Shown: one piece after another, positions 3,556 through 64,000 of the stretch
Numbering within the stretch: the first letter of the stretch is position 1
Layout of the letters: each line of letters begins with the position of its first letter
Notes under the pieces: generated by a model
The model's input: only the letters and a program-made list of their open reading frames with translations
What the model was told of the DNA's origin: nothing
Database searches by the model: none
NCBI GenBank assembly: GCA_001298575.1
Contig: LJCV01000099.1
Coordinates: forward strand, 62,001 to 126,000
Direction of reading: 5' to 3'
Source of the DNA: Actinobacteria bacterium OK074
Lineage (GTDB): Bacteria > Actinomycetota > Actinomycetes > Streptomycetales > Streptomycetaceae
DNA: 64,000 nt
Translations under genes and position numbers: made by a program

Positions 3556-5094
3556 TCAGTCCTCGGCCTTCGCCGGTCGTGCCGTCGCCGTGCCGCCCGC
3601 CATCGCGAGGCCCAGGGTGCGGTCGTCCGCCTCGGCCTTCGGGTAGGCGGCGGTCACCCGGCCCTCGTACATCACCAGGACCCGGTCGGACAGCGCGCGG
3701 ATCTCGCTCAGTTCGGCCGAGACCAGCAGGACGGCGTGGCCCGCGTCGCGGTAGGCGATCAGCTCGTCGTGGATGTGCTGGATGGCGCCGATGTCGACGC
3801 CCCGCGTGGGCTGCTCGACCAGCAACAGCGGTGCCCCGTGGGCGAGTTCGCGGCCCACCAGCAGCTTCTGGAGGTTGCCGCCGGAGAGCGCGGACGCCTT
3901 GGTCTCCGGGGTCGGCGCCTTGATGCCGAACCGTTCGATCAGACGGCGGGCGTGGGCGCGCACGGCCGTCGGCGGCAGCAGGCCCCGCTTCGACGCCAGC
4001 GTCGTACGGTGGTGGCCCATCGCGAGGTTGTCCGCGACGGACGCCGTCGGTGCCGTACCGACCGCGTGCCGGTCCTCGGGGACGTACGCGAGGCCGTGGG
4101 CCCGGCGTTCGGTCGCGGAGGCGTGGGTGAGGTCCCGGCCCGCGAGGGCGACCCGGCCGGCGGTGGTGGGCCGCAGCCCGGCCAGCGCCTCGATCAGCTC
4201 GCTCTGGCCGTTGCCCGCGACCCCGGCGATGCCGACGATCTCACCGGCGCGCACCTGGACGTCCACATCGTGGACACCGGCGGTCGTGAGCCCCTCGACG
4301 TCCAGGACCACGTCGGCGGGGGCGCCCTGGGCGTGGACGCGGTCCATCTCGACCGCGCGGCCGGTCATCGCGGCGGCGATCTCGTCCGCCGTGGTCTCGG
4401 CGGTGCGCAGCCGGGCCACCACCCGGCCGTCCCGCAGCACCGTGACGTTGTCGCTCGCCTCAAGGACCTCGCGCAGCTTGTGGGTGACCAGGATGACCGT
4501 GTGGTCCCGCGCGGTCAGCGACCTGAGCACCGCGAACAGGGCGTCGGCCTCGGCCGGGGTGAGCACGGCGGTCGGCTCGTCCAGGATGAGCGTCCGGGCG
4601 CCCCGGTGCAGCAGCTTGAGGATCTCCACCCGCTGCCGCAGCCCGACCGGCAGCTCGCCGACCCGGGCGTCCGGATCGACCGACAGCCCGTGCTCGGCGG
4701 CCAGTTCACGCACCCGGGCACGCGCCGCCGCCCGGTCCACCAGACCGAAACGGCGCGGCTCGGCGGCGTAGACGACGTTCTCGGCGACCGTCAGCGAGTC
4801 GAACAGCCTAAAGCTCTGGTGGACCATGCCGAGCCCGGCGGCCATCGCGGCGCGCGGGCTGCCCAGGGCCACCGGCTCACCGTCCACGCGGACCGAACCG
4901 GCGTCCGGGCGCTCCATGCCGTACAGGACGGACATCAGCGTCGACTTGCCGGCGCCGTTCTCGCCCATCAGGGCGTGGATCTCGCCCCGGCGGACGGTCA
5001 GGTCGACGGCGTCGTTGGCGAGCGTGCCGGGGAACTCCTTGGTGATGCCCCGGAGTTCGACCGCGATCCCCGCACCGGAAGACTGCCCGGTCAT
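3556..5094 (-). CDS. BMP-family nucleoside ABC transporter, dual-domain ATPase
   Basis: Cytoplasmic ATP-binding subunit, 512 residues, with two fused ABC domains as in sugar and nucleoside importers (RbsA/YufO type). The N-terminal domain has a full Walker A (GENGAGKST), a divergent signature (LPVGLRQR) and Walker B LILDEPTAVLTP. The C-terminal domain has a degenerate Walker A (GVAGNGQSEL) but a canonical ALSGGNLQK signature followed by LLLVEQPTRGVD. This asymmetry is normal for the family. The ATG at 5094 overlaps the stop of the binding-protein gene by one base (TGATG). Extension to the longer in-frame start at 5370 would run back into that gene. Confidence 0.93.
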   Translation of the reverse strand: MTGQSSGAGIAVELRGITKEFPGTLANDAVDLTVRRGEIHALMGENGAGKSTLMSVLYGMERPDAGSVRVDGEPVALGSPRAAMAAGLGMVHQSFRLFDSLTVAENVVYAAEPRRFGLVDRAAARARVRELAAEHGLSVDPDARVGELPVGLRQRVEILKLLHRGARTLILDEPTAVLTPAEADALFAVLRSLTARDHTVILVTHKLREVLEASDNVTVLRDGRVVARLRTAETTADEIAAAMTGRAVEMDRVHAQGAPADVVLDVEGLTTAGVHDVDVQVRAGEIVGIAGVAGNGQSELIEALAGLRPTTAGRVALAGRDLTHASATERRAHGLAYVPEDRHAVGTAPTASVADNLAMGHHRTTLASKRGLLPPTAVRAHARRLIERFGIKAPTPETKASALSGGNLQKLLVGRELAHGAPLLLVEQPTRGVDIGAIQHIHDELIAYRDAGHAVLLVSAELSEIRALSDRVLVMYEGRVTAAYPKAEADDRTLGLAMAGGTATARPAKAED

Positions 5095-22899: not shown

Positions 22900-23272
22900 C
22901 GCCGTCCTGCCCTCCGTCCCCTTCGATGCCCCGCGGTCGTCCGCCGGAGCACCGCACACCTGCCGTTCGGCCACCGGCCGAGGCATTCGAGTAACCACCG
23001 TTCGGCAATGTCGAACACTACCGTCCGTCGTCGACCCACCGCCAATGGTCGGTCGCCACGATTTTCGGCCGGACACCCGCGCGGGCCGCCCCCGTCCGGC
23101 CCGTCCGTCCCGTGGACGCCACTGACCGTACGGCCCGCCGGGGGCTACCCTGGCCGGGTGCGCCTTCCGCGGGAAGGTGGGCGGGTGGTCCGGCGGCCGA
23201 GCCGTACGTCCCCGCCGATCCCCGTCACCGGGCGCAAAGCCGACAGCCGTCGCACTCCAGGGAGCATCTTCC
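22900..23272. promoter_or_regulatory. Divergent promoter region between gylR and metH
   Basis: A 373-bp region with no gene. It holds the gylR operator at 23001-23015 near the left side and the metH promoter and leader on the right, which is extremely GC-rich. I looked for cobalamin, S-adenosylmethionine and S-adenosylhomocysteine riboswitch cores and saw none that held together. Confidence 0.5.
23001..23015. promoter_or_regulatory. GylR-like operator upstream of gylR
   Basis: TTCGGCAATGTCGAA, a 15-bp imperfect palindrome about 100 bp upstream of the gylR start. Read on the minus strand it is TTCGACATTGCCGAA inside GGTAGTGTTCGACATTGCC, the same block as at the glpF promoter. It suggests autoregulation. 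Confidence 0.7.
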
Positions 23273-26200
23273 ATGGCCTCGTCGCCAAACCCGTCCCTTT
23301 CGCCCGACTCCGCCGAGGAGCCGCCCGTATCCGCCGGGGGAGCAGCCGCGGGAGCCTCCGCCGCGGGGCAGCCGTCCGCCGCGGCCCCGGACCGGATCGC
23401 CGCCCTCCGCCAGGCCCTCGCGACCCGTGTCGTGGTCGCCGACGGCGCGATGGGCACCATGCTCCAGGCCCAGGACCCCACCCTGGAGGACTTCGAGGAC
23501 CTTGAGGGCTGCAACGAGATCCTGAACGTCACCCGGCCCGACATCGTGCGCTCGGTCCACGACGCCTACTTCGCGGTCGGCGTCGACTGCGTGGAGACCA
23601 ACACCTTCGGCGCGAACCACACGGCGATGGTCGAGTACGACATCCCCGAACGCGTCCACCAGCTGTCCGAGACCGGCGCCCGCATCGCCCGCGAGGTCGC
23701 CGACGAGTACGGCGCCCGCGACGGCCGGCAGCGCTGGGTGCTCGGCTCCATCGGCCCCGGCACGAAACTGCCGACCCTCGGTCACATCGACTACGCCACC
23801 ATCCGCGACGGCTACCAGGCCAACGCCGAGGGCCTGATCGCCGGCGGCGCGGACGCGCTGATCATCGAGACCACCCAGGACCTGCTCCAGACCAAGGCGT
23901 CCGTCCTGGGCGCCCGGCGCGCCATCGAGGCCACCGGCGTCGAACTGCCCCTGCTGGTCTCCATGGCGTTCGAGACCACCGGCACCATGCTGCTGGGCTC
24001 CGAGATCGGCGCCGCCCTGACGGCCCTGGAGCCGCTCGGCATCGACATGATCGGCCTCAACTGTTCGACGGGCCCCGCCGAGATGAGCGAGCACCTGCGC
24101 TACCTCACCCGGCACTCCCGCATCCCCCTGCTGTGCATGCCGAACGCCGGTCTGCCCATCCTGACCAAGGACGGCGCCCACTTCCCCCTCGACCCCGAGG
24201 GCCTGGCCGACGCCCAGGACACCTTCGTACGGGACTACGGCCTCTCCCTGGTCGGCGGCTGCTGCGGCACCACCCCCGAGCACCTGCGCCAACTCGTCGA
24301 ACGCGTACAGGGCGCCGCCCTCACCGAGCGCCACCCGCACCCCGAGCCCGGCGCCGCCTCCCTGTACCAGACCGTGCCCTTCCGGCAGGACACGTCCTAC
24401 CTGGCCATCGGCGAGCGCACCAACGCCAACGGCTCGAAGAAGTTCCGCGACGCCATGCTGGAGGGCCGCTGGGACGACTGCGTGGAGATGGCCCGCGACC
24501 AGATCCGCGAGGGCGCCCACATGCTCGACCTGTGCGTCGACTACGTCGGCCGCGACGGCGTCGCCGACATGGAGGAACTCGCCGGCCGCTTCGCCACCGC
24601 CTCCACCCTGCCGATCGTGCTCGACTCCACCGAAGTCCCGGTCATCCGCGCCGGGTTGGAGAAACTGGGCGGCCGGGCGGTCATCAACTCCGTCAACTAC
24701 GAGGACGGCGACGGCCCCGAGTCCCGCTTCGCCAAGGTCACGAAGCTGGCCCAGGAGCACGGCGCCGCCCTGATCGCGCTGACCATCGACGAGGAGGGCC
24801 AGGCCCGTACCGTCGAGACGAAGGTCGCCATCGCCGAACGGCTGATCGAGGACCTGACGACGAACTGGGGCATCCACGAGTCGGACATCCTCATCGACAC
24901 CCTCACCTTCACCATCTGCACCGGGCAGGAGGAGTCCCGCAAGGACGGCATCGCCACCATCGGGGCGATCCGCGAACTCAAGCGCCGCCACCCGGACGTC
25001 CAGACCACGCTCGGCCTGTCCAACATCTCCTTCGGCCTCAACCCGGCCGCCCGCGTCCTGCTCAACTCCGTCTTCCTCGACGAGTGCGTCAAGGCGGGCC
25101 TGGACTCGGCGATCGTGCACGCGTCGAAGATCCTGCCGATCGCCCGCTTCACCGAGGAGGAGGTCACCACCGCCCTCGACCTCATCCACGACCGCCGCTC
25201 CGCCCAGCAGGGGGACAAACCCGCCTACGACCCCCTCCAGAAGCTGATGGCGCTGTTCGAGGGCGCCACCACGAAGTCCCTGAAGGCGGGCCGGGCCGAG
25301 GAACTGGCCGCCCTCCCGCTGGAGGAGCGCCTCAAGCGCCGCATCATCGACGGCGAGAAGAACGGCCTGGAAGCCGACCTGGACGAGGCGCTCACCACCC
25401 GCAAGGCCCTCGACATCGTCAACGAGACCCTCCTGGACGGCATGAAGGTCGTCGGTGAACTCTTCGGCTCCGGCCAGATGCAGCTGCCGTTCGTCCTCCA
25501 GTCCGCCGAGGTGATGAAGGCCGCCGTCGCCCACCTCGAACCGCACATGGAGAAGTCGGATGCCGAGGGCAAGGGCACCATCGTCCTGGCGACCGTGCGC
25601 GGCGACGTGCACGACATCGGCAAGAACCTCGTCGACATCATCCTGTCCAACAACGGCTACAACGTCGTCAACCTCGGCATCAAGCAGCCGGTCTCCGCGA
25701 TCCTGGACGCCGCCGAGCAGCACCGGGCCGACGTCATCGGCATGTCCGGACTCCTCGTCAAATCCACGGTGATCATGAAGGAGAACCTGGAGGAGCTCAA
25801 CCAGCGCGGCCTGGCCGCCGACTACCCGGTCATCCTCGGCGGCGCCGCCCTCACCCGGGCCTACGTCGAGCAGGACCTCCACGAGATCTACCAGGGCGAA
25901 GTCCGCTACGCCCGCGACGCGTTCGAGGGCCTGCGGCTGATGGACGCCCTCATCGGCGTCAAGCGCGGCGTACCCGGCGCCGTCCTGCCCGAGCTCAAGC
26001 AGCGCCGGGTCCGGGCCACCGCCACTCCCGCGGCCGTCCAGGAACCGGCGGACGAGGGGCACGTCCGCTCCGACGTCGCCACCGACAACCCCGTTCCCAC
26101 GCCGCCGTTCTCGGGCACCCGCGTCATCAAGGGCATCCAACTCAAGGAGTACGCCTCCTGGTTGGACGAGGGCGCGCTGTTCAAGGGCCAGTGGGGCCTC

Positions 26201-57900: not shown

Positions 57901-59565
57901 TCAGCGGTTCAGGTACGCTCGCCAGCCGCCGTACGCCGTGATGTCCTCCGCGTCGGTCAGGGCGGACGGTTCGCAGAGGAAGCCGGGGACTCGGGTGCCG
58001 TCCGCCAACTCCACGCTGCCCAGGGTCATGGGGCGGGGGAGGGCGGAGAGGAAGCGGCCGAGGCCCTCCGCGGGGAGCCGCCAGATCTCCGCCTCGATCG
58101 CCGCGCCGTCGCCTCCGTCGCTTCCGTCGCCTACGTGGACCAGGCCCGGCTTCGGTGGCGTCGTGCGCAGGGCGTGCAGGCGGTAGACCGGTGCCGTGGT
58201 CGTCGTGCGGTCCAAACGGGCGCCCAGGGCGAGGAGTTGGGGGTTCAGGGGCTGGTCCGACAGGTGGGCGCCGACCACCGCGATGCTCGTCGTGGGCTGG
58301 AGCAGCCGGGCGATCGTCGCGAGGCGGTCGTCCGTGAACGCCGGGCCGATCAGCATCACGCCGAACGGCAGACCGTTCGCCTCGCCCGCCGGTACGGCGA
58401 CGGCCGCCAGGTCGAAGAGGTTCGTGGAGTTGGTGAAGCGGCCCAGGCGGGCGTTGGCGCCCAGCGGGTCGGCGGCCACCTCGGCGAGGGTGGGGTGACC
58501 GGGCGCGGTGGGCAGCAACAGGGCGTCCGCGTCGGCGAGTTCGGCCAGGGCGCGGGTGCGCAGGGTGGCCAGGTGGGCCTGGTCGGCGAAGAGGCGGTGG
58601 GCCGGGATGTCGCGGGCGCCGGTGATGATGTGCGCGACGGTGGGGTCCAGGCCCGTGCCGCCCTCGGCCATCAGTTTGTCGATGAAGCCACCCACCGCCG
58701 TGTAGCGCTCGGCCACGAACGCGCCCTGGTACAGCATCGCCGCCGCCTCGGTGAACGGCGTCAGGTCCAGTTCTCGCAACTCCGCGCCCGCGGCTGCCAG
58801 TTGGGCGACCGCTGCCTCGTAGGCCCCGGCCCAGCCCTCGTCGAGTTCGCCGAGCTGCCCGCGGGGCGGTACCGCCACGCGCCAGGGGCCCGGGGCGCGT
58901 TGGGGGAGGGGCGGGAGGGCGCGGGCCGGCGGGGACGTCATGAAGGACAGCGCCTGTTCGGCCTCGGGGAGGGTGCGGGCGAACACCGTCACGCAGTCGA
59001 TCGAGGCGCAGGCCGGGACGACGCCGTCCGTCGGGACCAGGCCGCGGGTGGGCTTGAGGCCGACGATGCCGTTGAAGGCGGCCGGGATGCGGCCGGAGCC
59101 CGCGGTGTCCGTGCCGAGGGCGAAGTCGACGATGCCGAGCGCCACCGCCACGGCCGAGCCGCTGCTGGAGCCGCCGCTGATCCTTGCCGGGTCGTGGGCG
59201 TTGCGGACGGGGCCGTGGGGGGAGCGGGTGCCTACCAGGCCGGTGGCGAACTGGTCCAGGTTCGTGGTGCCCAGGACTATCGCGCCGGCCGCGCGGAGGC
59301 GGGCGACCACGGGGGCGTCCGCCTGCGGTTCGTAGGCGTAGGCCGGGCAGCCTGCCGTGGTGGGGAGGCCGTGGACGTCTATGTTGCCCTTGGCGGCGAA
59401 GAGGCGGCCCGCGAGGGGGAGTTGGTCGCCGTTCGCCAGGCGGGCGTCCAAGGTGGTTGCCTCCGCCTCGACTTCTGGTTGTGGGCGGAGGTCGATCCAG
59501 ATCTCGGGGCGGTTGACGGCTGCCGCGCGGGCGTAGGCTCGACGGACTCTTGCGAGGGTCGACAT
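57901..59565 (-). CDS. atzF: Allophanate hydrolase
   Basis: Amidase-signature enzyme of 554 residues that breaks allophanate into ammonia and carbon dioxide. RLFAAKGNIDVHGLPTTAGC holds the catalytic lysine, ISGGSSSGSAVAVALGIVDF the cis-serine, and ALGTDTAGSGRIPAAFNGIV the nucleophilic serine, in the order of the Ser-cisSer-Lys triad. The C-terminal AtzF domain includes GLVHVGDGSDGGDGAAIEAE and GRFLSALPRPMTLGSVELAD. The ATG at 59565 follows AGGAGCACAG. It lies 120 bp downstream of the carboxylase on the same strand and acts on its product, or on the product of UAAP1/UAAP2. Ends near the oxidoreductase 3' end. Confidence 0.94.
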   Translation of the reverse strand: MSTLARVRRAYARAAAVNRPEIWIDLRPQPEVEAEATTLDARLANGDQLPLAGRLFAAKGNIDVHGLPTTAGCPAYAYEPQADAPVVARLRAAGAIVLGTTNLDQFATGLVGTRSPHGPVRNAHDPARISGGSSSGSAVAVALGIVDFALGTDTAGSGRIPAAFNGIVGLKPTRGLVPTDGVVPACASIDCVTVFARTLPEAEQALSFMTSPPARALPPLPQRAPGPWRVAVPPRGQLGELDEGWAGAYEAAVAQLAAAGAELRELDLTPFTEAAAMLYQGAFVAERYTAVGGFIDKLMAEGGTGLDPTVAHIITGARDIPAHRLFADQAHLATLRTRALAELADADALLLPTAPGHPTLAEVAADPLGANARLGRFTNSTNLFDLAAVAVPAGEANGLPFGVMLIGPAFTDDRLATIARLLQPTTSIAVVGAHLSDQPLNPQLLALGARLDRTTTTAPVYRLHALRTTPPKPGLVHVGDGSDGGDGAAIEAEIWRLPAEGLGRFLSALPRPMTLGSVELADGTRVPGFLCEPSALTDAEDITAYGGWRAYLNR

Positions 59566-59685
59566 CTGTGCTCCTGGGGTTGCGGGTGTGGGGCGGGGGC
59601 GGTTGCGAGGAGCCGTTGGGCGGGGCTCGGTCCGCGCACCGCGGCGGTGTCGGGGCGGCGGGCCGCCCGTCACCACGGGTGGCTG

Positions 59686-62600
59686 TCAGGCGGTGGCCGC
59701 GGGCTCTGCGGGGCCGAGGATCACCAACGCCGTCCCCGCCTCCACCTGGTCCCCCGGCCTCGCCAGGATTTCCGTCACCACCCCGGAGACGGGAGCCGGG
59801 ACCCTCGACTCCATCTTCATCGCCTCCAGGGCCAGCAGGGGCTGGCCCGCTGTCACCGTGTCGCCCTCCTGTACGTTCAACTGCCATACCGATGCGGCGA
59901 ATTCGGCCTCCACCAGGCGGCCGCCCGGGGGGATCGTGATCTCCGTCGATGGGGGCGCCGGGGCTGTCGCCGCCTCCGCTCGGGTGAACTCGCCCGCCGC
60001 CTCCCACGCGTCGCGTTCGGCCGCGAAGGCCGTGCGTTGTTTCGACCTGAACTCCGTTATGGAATCGGCCTGTTCGGTCAGGAAGTCCTCGTACCGGGCC
60101 AGTGAGAACTCGCCCTCCTCCACGCGCGGGACGAAGCGGCCGGAGGTGATGTCGGCGCGCAGGTCGAGGAGTTCGGCCGCGGAGACCGGGTACCACTTGA
60201 TGCGGTCGAAGAAGCGCAGCAGCCACGGCGAGCCCGGTTCGAAGGCGCCGCGTTGCTGCCAGCCCGACCACACCTGGGTCGTGCGGCCCACGAACTGGTA
60301 GCCGCCGGGGCCCTCCATGCCGTAGACGCAGAGGTACGCGCCGCCGATGCCCACCGAGTTCTCGGCGGTCCAGGTGCGGGCCGGGTTGTACTTCGTCGTC
60401 ACCAGGCGGTGGCGCGGGTCCAGCGGGGTGGCCACCGGGGCGCCCAAGTAGACGTCGCCCAGGCCCAGTACGAGGTACTCCGCGTCGAAGACGGTGCGGT
60501 AGACGTCGTCGACCGAGGACAGGCCGTTGACACGGCGGATGAACTCGATGTTCCACGGGCACCAGGGCGCGTCGTCGCGGACGCCCGCCATGTAGCGGGC
60601 GATTGCCTCGCGGGTGGCCGGGTCGTCCCAGGAGAGGGGGAGATGGACCGTGCGGGAGGGGACCACCAGCTCGTCGGTCGGAGGGAGCGCGGCGGCTATC
60701 TCCCTTACCTCGGCGAGGAGTTCAGGCTGGGGGAGGCGGCTCGGGTCCGTCTGGATCTGGAGGGAACGGATGCCCGGGGTGAGGTCGGTGACTCCGTCCA
60801 GGCCCGCGTCCCCCACCGCCTCCATCAGCGCGTGCACCCGCATCCGCAGCGCCAGGTCCAGCTGCATCGGGCCGAATTCGACCAGCAGGTTGTCGTCGCC
60901 GCTGCGGCGGAAGGTGACGTCGCCGTCGCGGGCCAGGACGCCGCCGTCCACGATCGGCGGCCGTACCGTCCCGTCGTTCCCCAGTGGCGCGAAGCGGACC
61001 GTGTCGCCGGGGCGCAGTTGGCCCAGTTTCCAGCGTTCCCAGGTCGCCACTGTCGCCGGGCAGACGAAACCGCCGAGCGAGGGGCCGTCCGGGCCGAGCA
61101 GCACCGGCATGTCGCCCGTGTAGTCGACGGCCCCGACGGAGTACGGCGTGTCGTGGATGTTGGACGGGTGCAGGCCCGCCTCGCCGCCGTCCGAGCGGGC
61201 CCAGCGCGGCTTCGGCCCGACCAGCCGGACGCCCGTGCGGGCCGAGTTGAAGTGGACCTTCCAGTCGGCCGCGTAGAAGTCGTGGACGTCCTGTTCGGTG
61301 AAGAACTCCGGTGCCGCGTGCGGGCCTTCGAGCGCGCCCAGCCGCCACGTGGAAGTGAACTCCGGGCGGTCCCGCTCGGGTACGGCCGTGCCCGAGCTCA
61401 CCGCGCCGCCGTGCAGGACATCGCCCGTGCGCAGTGCCCGGCCGCCGTGGCCGCCGAACCGGCCCAGGGTGAAGGTGCTCGCGCTGCCCAGGAACGACGG
61501 CACGTCCAGGCCGCCGCCCGCGAACAACACGTAGGTGCGCAGGCCGTGTTCGGCGGGCGCGCCGATGGACAGGACCGAACCCGCCGCCACCGTCACCGGC
61601 TCCCAGCGCGCCACCGGCGTCCCGTCGACCGTGACCGGGGCCGGGGCGCCCGTCACGCACACCGTCGTCGCGTGCGTGAACCTCAACTCCGGCCCCTGCA
61701 AGGTGCATTCGAGGCCCGGGGCGCCCTCCGCGTTGCCCAGCGCCCGGTTGCCGAGGCGGAACGACAGGTCGTCCATCGGACCGCACGGCGGCACGCCCAC
61801 CTGCCAGTAGCCGGTACGGCCCGGCCAGTCCTGCACGGTGGTGAGGGTGCCCGGCGCCACGACCTCGACGCGCGGGGTCGGGTCGGTGACCGCGGCCAGC
61901 GTCGCGGTGGAGTGCGTGGCCGCCGTGAACGACCGCTCCGCGAGCGCCGCCCGCACCAGCCCCAGGTTCGTCTCGATACCGTCGACGCGGGTACGGGCCA
62001 GCGCCTCGTCGAGCCGGGCCAGCGCGTGCGCCCGGTCCAAGCCGTACGCGATCACCTTGGCGAGCATCGGGTCGTACGCCGTGCTCACCTCCGTGCCGGT
62101 CTCCACCCAGCCGTCCACGCGGACGCCCGCCGGGAACTCCACCCGCGTCAACAGGCCCGCGCTGGGCCGGTGTTCACGGCTGGGGTCCTCGGCGTACACG
62201 CGGGCCTCGACGGCGTGGCCGCGGGGCGGGCCCGGGTCGCGTACGACGTCCGGCTCGCCCTGGGCCAGCTTCAGCATCCAGGCGACGAGATCGACGCCGT
62301 AGACCTCCTCCGTCACCGGATGTTCCACCTGGAGGCGGGTGTTGACCTCCAGGAAGTACGCCTCCTCGCGGGCGGCGTCGTAGACGAACTCGACGGTTCC
62401 GGCGGAGCGGTAGCCGACCGAGGCGCACAAGTCGCGGGCCGAGCGCGCCAGTTGCTCGCGGACGTGCGGGGGCAGGCCCGGTGCGGGGGCCTCCTCCACC
62501 ACCTTCTGGTTGCGGCGTTGCAGGGAGCAGTCGCGGTCGCCGAAGGTGACGACCCTGCCCGCGCCGTCGCCGAAGACCTGCACCTCGACGTGGCGGGCGC

Positions 62601-63213
62601 GCTCCACCAGGCGTTCCAGGAAGACCCCGGCCGAGGAGAAGGAGGCGGCGGCCACGCGCTGTACGCGGTCCCAGGCGTCCGTGAGTTCGGCGGCGTCGCG
62701 GCAGGCCGACATGCCGATGCCGCCGCCCCCGCCGGTCGCCTTGAGCATCACCGGGTAGCCGATGCCGGCCGCCGCCGCGAGCGCCTCGTCCAGCGACGGC
62801 AGCAGGTCCGTGCCCGGCGCCAGCGGCACCCCCGCCGCCTGCGCCGCAGCGCGGGCCGTGTGCTTCGCGCCGAACAGCTCCAGCTGCTCCGGCGTCGGGC
62901 CGACGAACACGATGCCCGCGTCCTCGCAGCGGCGCGCGAAGGCCGCGTCCTCGGAGAGGAAGCCGTAGCCCGGGTGGATCGCCCCGGCGCCGGTGTCCTT
63001 GGCTGCCTTGAGCACCAACTCGGCGTCCAGGTACGACTCCTTGGCGGGCGCCGGGCCCAGCCGTACCGCCTCGTCGGCGAGCCGGACGTGCGGGGCCGAG
63101 CGGTCCGGGTCGGAGTACACCGCGACCGTGCGCAGGCCGAGTTCGCGGGCGGTGCGCAGGATGCGGACGGCTATCTCGCCCCGGTTGGCGACCAGGAGGG
63201 TGTCGAAGCTCAT
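59686..63213 (-). CDS. Biotin-dependent urea/guanidine carboxylase
   Basis: Single-chain biotin carboxylase of 1175 residues. The biotin-carboxylase domain begins SFDTLLVANRGEIAVRILRT and contains KATGGGGGIGMSA (ATP grasp), FLERLVERARHVEVQVFGDG and FLEVNTRLQVEHPVTEEVYG. The carboxyltransferase domain (about residues 450-1060) has RLVGPKPRWARSDGGEAGLH and NIHDTPYSVGAVDYTGDMPV. The C-terminal carrier has LLALEAMKMESRV with the biotin lysine. In the carboxyltransferase the residue I recall as N1330 in Kluyveromyces urea carboxylase appears to correspond to D697 here (GAVDYTGD), the substitution reported for guanidine carboxylases. With UAAP1, UAAP2 and AtzF in the operon, guanidine is the likelier substrate. 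The ATG at 63213 overlaps the UAAP2 stop (ATGA). Confidence 0.92.
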   Translation of the reverse strand: MSFDTLLVANRGEIAVRILRTARELGLRTVAVYSDPDRSAPHVRLADEAVRLGPAPAKESYLDAELVLKAAKDTGAGAIHPGYGFLSEDAAFARRCEDAGIVFVGPTPEQLELFGAKHTARAAAQAAGVPLAPGTDLLPSLDEALAAAAGIGYPVMLKATGGGGGIGMSACRDAAELTDAWDRVQRVAAASFSSAGVFLERLVERARHVEVQVFGDGAGRVVTFGDRDCSLQRRNQKVVEEAPAPGLPPHVREQLARSARDLCASVGYRSAGTVEFVYDAAREEAYFLEVNTRLQVEHPVTEEVYGVDLVAWMLKLAQGEPDVVRDPGPPRGHAVEARVYAEDPSREHRPSAGLLTRVEFPAGVRVDGWVETGTEVSTAYDPMLAKVIAYGLDRAHALARLDEALARTRVDGIETNLGLVRAALAERSFTAATHSTATLAAVTDPTPRVEVVAPGTLTTVQDWPGRTGYWQVGVPPCGPMDDLSFRLGNRALGNAEGAPGLECTLQGPELRFTHATTVCVTGAPAPVTVDGTPVARWEPVTVAAGSVLSIGAPAEHGLRTYVLFAGGGLDVPSFLGSASTFTLGRFGGHGGRALRTGDVLHGGAVSSGTAVPERDRPEFTSTWRLGALEGPHAAPEFFTEQDVHDFYAADWKVHFNSARTGVRLVGPKPRWARSDGGEAGLHPSNIHDTPYSVGAVDYTGDMPVLLGPDGPSLGGFVCPATVATWERWKLGQLRPGDTVRFAPLGNDGTVRPPIVDGGVLARDGDVTFRRSGDDNLLVEFGPMQLDLALRMRVHALMEAVGDAGLDGVTDLTPGIRSLQIQTDPSRLPQPELLAEVREIAAALPPTDELVVPSRTVHLPLSWDDPATREAIARYMAGVRDDAPWCPWNIEFIRRVNGLSSVDDVYRTVFDAEYLVLGLGDVYLGAPVATPLDPRHRLVTTKYNPARTWTAENSVGIGGAYLCVYGMEGPGGYQFVGRTTQVWSGWQQRGAFEPGSPWLLRFFDRIKWYPVSAAELLDLRADITSGRFVPRVEEGEFSLARYEDFLTEQADSITEFRSKQRTAFAAERDAWEAAGEFTRAEAATAPAPPSTEITIPPGGRLVEAEFAASVWQLNVQEGDTVTAGQPLLALEAMKMESRVPAPVSGVVTEILARPGDQVEAGTALVILGPAEPAATA

Positions 63214-63908
63214 GCGGCATCCCCGGAGTTGGCGTCTCCGGAGCCGGCGTCCCCGGAGTCGGCATCCCCCGTGCCGTCGGCCCCGGTGACCGTCATCCGT
63301 ACGGCCGTTGGGTCGAAGCCGTTGCAAGGGTTGTTGATCTGGGGGCAGTTGGAGACCAGCACCAGCACGTCCCGCTCGGCGCGCAGCGCCAGCGACAGGC
63401 CCGGCGCCGAGATGCCGTCGACGATGCCGAGGGTGCCGTCCTTCTCCACCGGCACGTTCATGTACCAGTTGATGTTGGAGACCAGGTCGCGCTTGCCGAG
63501 GCCGTACTTCGCGCCCTCCGCGAGGAAGTTGTCGACGCAGGCGTGCTGCGCGTACGTGTGGTGGCCGTAGCGCAGGGTGTTCGACTCCTTGGAGCAGGCG
63601 CCGCCGACCGTGTCGTGGCGGCCTACGTCGTCCGAGACCACGGTCATCAGCGGGGTGTGCTCGTTCGACAGCAGCACACTGCCGGTGGTCAGGAAGATGT
63701 TGCCCTGCGCGTGGATCGTGTCGGGCGCGCTGTAGCGCACGGCCGTGTCGTGGGCGTCGTAGACGAGGAAGTCGACGGCCTGGTTGCCGTGCAGGTCGGT
63801 GACGGTGAGCGTCTCGCCCGCGCGGACGACGGCCGACCAGGCGGCGCGGGCGGGAACGACGGTCGTGCTCATGCGGGTCTCCTCGGCGGATGCGGTCCCG
63901 GTGCTCAT
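63210..63908 (-). CDS. Urea carboxylase-associated protein 2 / carboxyguanidine deiminase subunit
   Basis: DUF1989-type protein of 232 residues. Family blocks are AGETLTVTDLHGNQAVDFLV, DTIHAQGNIFLTTGSVLLSN, ACSKESNTLRYGHHTYAQHA (cysteine and histidines of the likely active site) and SNCPQINNPCNGFDPTAVRM near the C-terminus. UAAP1/UAAP2 homologues were shown in Pseudomonas to act together as carboxyguanidine deiminase (CgdAB), converting carboxyguanidine to allophanate. The start at 63908 overlaps the UAAP1 stop (ATGA); an internal ATG at 63872 also has a ribosome site. The C-terminal tail is made of five-residue units (DADSG, DAGSG, DANSG) from a DNA repeat. Overlap with the carboxylase start shows coupling. 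Confidence 0.9.
   Translation of the reverse strand: MSTGTASAEETRMSTTVVPARAAWSAVVRAGETLTVTDLHGNQAVDFLVYDAHDTAVRYSAPDTIHAQGNIFLTTGSVLLSNEHTPLMTVVSDDVGRHDTVGGACSKESNTLRYGHHTYAQHACVDNFLAEGAKYGLGKRDLVSNINWYMNVPVEKDGTLGIVDGISAPGLSLALRAERDVLVLVSNCPQINNPCNGFDPTAVRMTVTGADGTGDADSGDAGSGDANSGDAA
63218..63262 (-). repeat. 15-bp tandem repeat at the end of the UAAP2 gene
   Basis: Three units, CATCCCCGGAGTTGG (63218-63232), CGTCTCCGGAGCCGG (63233-63247) and CGTCCCCGGAGTCGG (63248-63262), each 15 bases. They encode the D-A-x-S-G tail. Copy changes would keep the frame. Confidence 0.85.
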
Positions 63909-64000
63909 GCGAGCCCCCTCGCGGCAAGGAATTCGGCGGTGTTCAGGAAGGCGCGGCGGCCCTCGGGGGTCGCCTCCCACAGCGGGTCGCCGGGCGCGGT
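63905..64000 (-). CDS. Urea carboxylase-associated protein 1 (partial, 5' part outside window)
   Basis: Only the last 31 residues are visible: a frame reading TAPGDPLWEATPEGRRAFLN then TAEFLAARGLA and TGA. The pattern P-L-W-E-A-T-P-E-G-R-x-A-F-x-N-T is the conserved C-terminus of UAAP1. Its stop overlaps the UAAP2 ATG (ATGA). The gene starts beyond the right edge, where any guanidine riboswitch or transporter genes would also lie. It was read by hand since it lacks a start codon here. Confidence 0.85.
   Translation of the reverse strand, partial: TAPGDPLWEATPEGRRAFLNTAEFLAARGLA

Follow-up and report, generated by a model that had tools for sequence, protein, structure and literature searches.

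Guanidine-degrading pathways have been described in Pseudomonas, Raoultella, Klebsiella and ammonia-oxidizing bacteria, where, according to passages of two papers, the genes are controlled by guanidine-I or -II riboswitches and come with an ABC importer or, in the ammonia oxidizers, an APC permease (PMC12186494, PMC11410670). In Streptomyces avermitilis and Mycobacterium smegmatis, genes for an amino acid permease, urf1/urf2, a 'urea carboxylase' and an 'amidase' form a regulon of the repressor AmtR, which was published as one of urea metabolism with an unknown effector (PMC4222082). AmtR of Corynebacterium glutamicum, a homologous repressor with a similar operator of the CTAT-N6-ATAG type, is a central nitrogen regulator released by GlnK (passages of PMC8864220). 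We have analyzed a 64,000-nucleotide stretch of Actinobacteria bacterium OK074 (hereafter the window; G000:C90:62001-126000 of a 10.67-Mb draft genome), at whose end lie genes for UAAP1, UAAP2, a biotin-dependent carboxylase and AtzF, together with the overlapping contig stretch L009 (C90:118000-137000; window position = L009 position + 55999). A Streptomyces-metH RNA in the window, the size of the genome and a gene layout like that of S. avermitilis suggest that the strain is a Streptomyces.

Judged from its sequence, this cluster, labelled urea-degrading, very probably degrades guanidine instead. With a probability of about 0.87, we read it as a guanidine-catabolic operon that AmtR would repress, along with a permease gene, from three operators, and that guanidine or a pathway intermediate would most likely derepress. 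Guanidine would be taken up, probably via the nearby APC permease, and carboxylated by the biotin enzyme to carboxyguanidine with ATP and bicarbonate; UAAP1/UAAP2 would deiminate this product to allophanate, which AtzF would cleave to ammonia and CO2. Gene identities, signature residues, operators, the lack of further such sites in the genome and the conservation of the linkage were computed here; the literature supplies the Asp/Asn rule, the steps of the pathway and the repression of the homologous M. smegmatis genes by AmtR. The enzyme set, signature residues and order of steps are like those of the pathways in Pseudomonas and the other genera above; unlike those, the present operon has an AmtR repressor together with an APC permease, and a search for a riboswitch beside it gave none. 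The enzymes add a member to a pathway already known; the difference is that AmtR stands where the others have a riboswitch. Genes and layout are the same as those of the published AmtR regulon, and, as in S. avermitilis, amtR is divergent and the permease gene lies elsewhere (PMC4222082).

Genes and signature residues

The features of the locus are as follows.

57901..59565, minus strand: AtzF (allophanate hydrolase), ATG at 59565; TIGR02713 703 bits (cut-off 511.05), amidase PF01425 and AH_C PF21986
59686..63213, minus strand: predicted guanidine carboxylase of 1175 aa, of the type annotated as urea carboxylase; TIGR02712 1842.9 bits (cut-off 1303.85)
63210..63908, minus strand: UAAP2, predicted carboxyguanidine deiminase subunit; TIGR03424 330.7 bits (cut-off 284.7), PF09347
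63905..64729 (L009 7906-8730), minus strand: UAAP1, predicted carboxyguanidine deiminase subunit; TIGR03425 311.7 bits (cut-off 205.95), PF09347
L009 8798-8817: predicted operator before UAAP1, between amtR and UAAP1
L009 8919-9545, plus strand: amtR, divergent from UAAP1; TetR-like
L009 16368-17927, minus strand: APC permease, PF13520; TIGR03428 668.3 bits, below the cut-off of 740.45
L009 17961-18000: two predicted tandem operators before the permease

All four operon proteins exceed the curated cut-offs of their families. The carboxylase matches TIGR02712 over its full length and has its Pfam domains in the order of a fused biotin carboxylase-carboxyltransferase-biotin carrier protein, so that the label 'biotin carboxylase' in a preliminary description of the window was too narrow. 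The two PF09347 subunits are distinct and adjacent, each scoring above the cut-off of its own UAAP model, and we take them to be CgdA/CgdB (carboxyguanidine deiminase). Just the final 96 nt of UAAP1 (63905..64000, minus strand) lie within the window, the remainder being beyond its edge on the same contig. The overlapping gene order that had been proposed holds for UAAP1/UAAP2 and UAAP2/carboxylase, each pair sharing a 4-nt ATGA, but not for AtzF, whose ATG (59565) lies 120 nt past the carboxylase stop; with an alternative start at the upstream GTG (59676), the gap would shrink to 9 nt. Between the four genes there is room for no additional gene.

The carboxylase is homologous over its whole length to PDB entries 5i8i and 3va7, which, from the KLLA name in the match, we take to be the urea amidolyase of Kluyveromyces lactis. 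That enzyme carries a fused allophanate hydrolase and has Asn1330 in place of Asp: D697 of the window protein ('GAVDYTGD') aligns without a gap to Asn1330 ('GAINFTGD') of 5i8i, and D920 (GLGDVYLG) is aligned to Asp1584 (GLGDVFLG), residue 1584 having been counted by hand along the alignment. The preliminary description had noted that D697 seems to replace the asparagine marking urea carboxylases, and had named an Asn at this position as evidence to the contrary; the aligned residue is Asp, and the offset to yeast position 1330 is exact. A passage of PMC12186494 assigns Asp to guanidine carboxylases and Asn to urea carboxylases, and, in a passage of PMC11410670, a guanidine carboxylase call requires Asp at both K. 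lactis 1330 and 1584. The earlier view of the cluster as a guanidine rather than a urea operon is supported by Asp at 1330, Asp at 1584 and the UAAP gene content, and we infer guanidine as the substrate in this strain.

Conserved linkage in actinobacteria

TIGR02712 searches matched 18 of 61 genomes of the genus, 15 of 296 of the phylum and 51 of 393 of the class; a looser threshold added 17 of 18 mycobacterial genomes, in which matches confined to the biotin carboxylase part were set aside. Around every carboxyltransferase match, at most about 9 kb of flanking sequence was taken on either side, less at contig ends, which gave 89 regions including the window's own. The residue aligned to K. 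lactis 1330 was Asp in 72 (D-type), Asn in 14 (N-type), and Ala, Ile and Met in one each. Two UAAP genes were present in 72/72 D-type versus 0/14 N-type regions, and an AmtR gene (>60 bits) in 55/72 versus 0/14; AtzF was found in 62/72 D-type and 13/14 N-type regions. Every D-type enzyme (72/72) also had Asp at 1584. Three of the N-type regions (L060, L231 and L234) are shorter because their contigs end; in L234, the sole N-type region to lack AtzF, the sequence breaks off within the carboxylase. Both types occur together in G108, G1024 and G1076, in which the N-type enzyme is accompanied by AtzF without UAAP or AmtR genes and the D-type enzyme by UAAP1/2 and AmtR. The association of residue type with gene content has a Fisher value of 2.2e-16, which is not a probability over independent events, the N-type rows being one clade.

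Some enzymes of the survey depart from the fused form. In 29 of the 72 D-type regions (mycobacteria, Nocardia and relatives; L065-L070, L243-L249, L251-L266), the carboxylase appears split: a protein with carboxyltransferase (CT) domains stands alone, and the surrounding 5 kb show no match to biotin carboxylase; the one example scanned, L108 6451-8448 of M. rhodesiae, has two CT domains only. These 29 CT-only enzymes form one clade adjoining the fused D-type enzymes, and may need a partner in trans or catalyze a different reaction. The Ile and Ala variants at position 1330 belong to L072 and L071, respectively; UAAP genes are present at the Ile and Met loci and absent from the Ala locus, whose enzyme has Glu at 1584 and whose region contains no AtzF either.

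The linkage was also approached from the regulator. A search with a 5e57 fragment alone was restricted to the best 80 of 162 relatives, and this set shares some genomes with the survey (L108 and G348; L123 and G108). A carboxyltransferase lay within reach at 55 of these 80 AmtR loci, and all 55 had Asp at 1330 and UAAP genes; Asp at 1584 was present in 54 of them, one sequence being cut off. Three further loci have UAAP genes where the contig ends. No biotin carboxylase match was found in the fetched DNA for 54 of the 55. The same set of genes is found in the genomes whose AmtR is nearest to 5e57 (G692 and G424), and there the box is at the permease (L252 and L253). M. smegmatis itself is outside the best 80 loci and probably outside the 396 same-genus genomes (best AmtR identity 95%, in G692); its enzyme would be expected to carry Asp at 1330, as do those of its closest available relatives (G692, G424 and G593).

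Predicted AmtR operators and guanidine riboswitches

The gene divergent from UAAP1 is, by similarity, an AmtR orthologue. Among PDB entries, its product is most similar to 5e57 ('Transcription regulator AmtR', E 1.3e-36), then to 5dy1, 5dxz and 5dy0 ('TetR family transcriptional regulator') and to 5mqq and 6gy3 ('AmtR protein'), so that three of the six best matches (5e57, 5mqq and 6gy3) are named AmtR; the seventh reaches only E 1.3e-11. Presumably 5e57 is the M. smegmatis protein and the other five entries are that of C. glutamicum.

A predicted operator, TTTCTATCGCTCGACAGAAA, occupies L009 8798-8817 in the amtR-UAAP1 intergenic region, and a tandem pair of copies (L009 17961-18000) stands 33 bp ahead of the permease ATG. 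Scanning the 10.67-Mb genome with TTYCTRTCNNNNGAYAGRAA at up to one mismatch returned 3 sites, all at the operon or the permease; the reversed pattern returned 0 sites, and shuffled L009 contained none. In 18 same-genus genomes chosen by operon presence, exact sites were found in 9/9 with the operon versus 0/9 without it; eight of the former have two sites and G042 has one, all within 11.2 kb of the carboxylase match. A looser box, TNNCTRTCNNNNGAYAGNNA, was present in 63/72 D-type versus 0/14 N-type regions, with 75 of its 76 matches near the start of UAAP1, the permease or AmtR, and a mean of 0.1 matches in ten letter shuffles of the 1.66 Mb. In a second same-genus lineage (L047-L050), whose carboxylase is 64% identical, TACCTGTC-N4-GACAGGTA occurs at the permease. 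Passages of PMC8864220 give the AmtR box as CTAT-N6-ATAG in C. glutamicum and as TAtCTGTCa-n2-cGACAGATAT in other actinobacteria. As far as such pattern matches tell, the AmtR-type operator is confined to its target promoters, i.e., those of the operon and the permease. One D-type operon (L239, in G868) has a perfect AmtR box, and an AmtR-like gene was not detected in its region.

The preliminary description had suggested looking past position 64000 for a guanidine riboswitch and a transporter. A transporter was found: the permease gene, which carries the AmtR-type operators, ends 7.6 kb upstream of UAAP1, and its product is, on sequence grounds, a relative of the TIGR03428 'urea carboxylase system' permease family only. 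The riboswitch was not: Rfam matches included no guanidine family in the window or in L009, in the latter also at E up to 10, which speaks against riboswitch control at this locus. In the genome as a whole, neither guanidine-I (RF00442) nor guanidine-III (RF01763) was found, guanidine-II not having been searched genome-wide.

Across the genomes compared, guanidine-I was found in 0 of 31 and above cut-off, under stricter filters, in 1 of 42 further ones (G801). There (L268), the riboswitch at 4894-5000 lies 3 kb upstream of the CT-only variant with Met at 1330, with UAAP genes and no AmtR; this variant may possibly act on another guanidine-like substrate. Three sub-cut-off guanidine-I matches (G543 at E 2.5e-8, G593 and G885) are in D-type genomes, away from the carboxylase. 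Guanidine-III was above cut-off in 30 of 40 D-type genomes, the window's own not being one of the 30; going by coordinates, wherever riboswitch and carboxylase share a contig they are more than 480 kb apart, and in the remaining cases they are on different contigs. A crude motif recognized an SMR-like reading frame at 7 of ten guanidine-III loci (L278-L287), and the 3 of those that were tested all matched PF00893. From these predictions, many such bacteria seem to have guanidine export controlled by a riboswitch, and guanidine import and degradation controlled by AmtR.

Alternative substrates and the possible AmtR effector

That the cluster is a true urea amidolyase pathway, in which the carboxylase and then AtzF convert urea via allophanate and UAAP1/2 are accessory, is suggested by the family names (TIGR02712 'urea carboxylase'; UAAP, 'urea amidolyase associated protein') and by the urea-metabolism label that the AmtR regulon carries in print (PMC4222082 and passages of PMC10704036). 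We nevertheless regard it as very unlikely, given Asp at K. lactis 1330, the lack of UAAP genes beside the N-type enzymes that fit urea (0/14) and the indifference of M. smegmatis AmtR binding to urea (PMC4222082); moreover, the genome has two urease alpha genes above cut-off, so that a urea carboxylase would be redundant. Equally unlikely is a substrate other than free guanidine, for example methylguanidine, guanylurea or another substituted guanidine: the uptake permease has no assigned specificity, and the Met, Ile and Ala variants at 1330 in related loci indicate that the pocket varies within the family, but the window enzyme has the standard guanidine residue pair and no extra gene fits into the operon.

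The guanidine operon under AmtR has several points against it. The Asp/Asn rule is drawn from one review passage and one methods passage. The 14 N-type rows form one clade (98% SH-aLRT by a quick tree method), so that the D/N contrast in gene content amounts to one evolutionary event, and the 17 mycobacterial regions, chosen mostly by AmtR similarity, are not a random sample. AmtR genes are missing from 17 of the 72 D-type regions and the box from 9, and at 22 of the 80 AmtR loci the neighborhood lacks all of these genes. The permease, scoring under its family cut-off, is a predicted guanidine carrier only. Nitrogen control of the homologous M. smegmatis genes runs via GlnR and persists without AmtR (PMC4222082), and the release of C. 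glutamicum AmtR by the PII protein GlnK (passages of PMC8864220) makes a small effector less than certain.

As for the effector, we infer, with a modest preference over other signals, that guanidine (or carboxyguanidine) is the molecule to which AmtR responds. In M. smegmatis, the permease, carboxylase and hydrolase genes are under repression by AmtR, which has a binding site upstream of the first of them; neither urea nor amino acids influenced its binding (PMC4222082). The regulon is seemingly confined to guanidine genes, which suits a pathway-specific effector. In the ligand domain, D108, E127 and E177 (window AmtR numbering) have conservation of 1.00, 0.99 and 1.00 among 119 AmtR sequences, up to 80 of which come from the AmtR search including operon-less loci and in which species may repeat; 16 of 135 sequences were omitted, and five AmtRs from the omitted loci keep all three residues. 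These acidic residues would suit a guanidinium ligand and are candidate pocket residues.

A different kind of control, in which the AmtR of a guanidine operon responds to nitrogen status in general (through PII/GlnK, as C. glutamicum AmtR does) or only competes with GlnR, is the strongest competitor, although we hold it to be doubtful. Petridis 2016 (cited in PMC5137332) reportedly, going by its title, has M. smegmatis AmtR compete with GlnR. Adenylylated GlnK releases C. glutamicum AmtR, for which passages of PMC8864220 state that no small effector was identified, and passages of a review give the same competition with GlnR for M. smegmatis (PMC10704036). On the other side, PII is, according to passages of PMC4617892, not a regulator of the mycobacterial transcriptional nitrogen response; the regulon looks limited to guanidine genes, both in our genome scan and in PMC4222082; and the C. 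glutamicum AmtR fragment, the one comparator, has Glu, Ile and Met at 108, 127 and 177, i.e., without the acidic residues at 127 and 177 that the window AmtR has.

The published actinobacterial AmtR 'urea' regulon (PMC4222082), which we re-read as one of guanidine metabolism, is probably a guanidine regulon. Passages of a 2025 review (PMC12186494) list riboswitches as the only known guanidine receptors besides transporters and enzymes and anticipate that guanidine-binding transcription factors may emerge; neither an AmtR-guanidine link nor a guanidine-responsive transcription factor appears among the titles and abstract starts listed from the open-licence literature or in the passages of PMC12186494 and PMC12508155. 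The survey joins two open ends, the missing guanidine-binding transcription factor and the missing small effector of AmtR, and makes AmtR a testable guanidine-sensor candidate. Slightly favored over its negation is the wider proposal that AmtR, as a repressor responding to guanidine, is the first transcription factor that senses this compound and replaces the riboswitch at import and degradation genes, with guanidine-III before SMR export genes elsewhere in many of these genomes, and that the mycobacterial and Streptomyces 'urea' regulon is its guanidine regulon. The survey also suggests new names for many actinobacterial genes that are now annotated as urea carboxylase or as urea metabolism under AmtR control.

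Two other RNA elements were observed. A SAM riboswitch (L217 1506-1632, minus strand) in a D-type locus region is unrelated to the guanidine operon, and a Streptomyces-metH RNA (RF03076, 67.5 bits) lies in the window at 23100-23275 on the plus strand.

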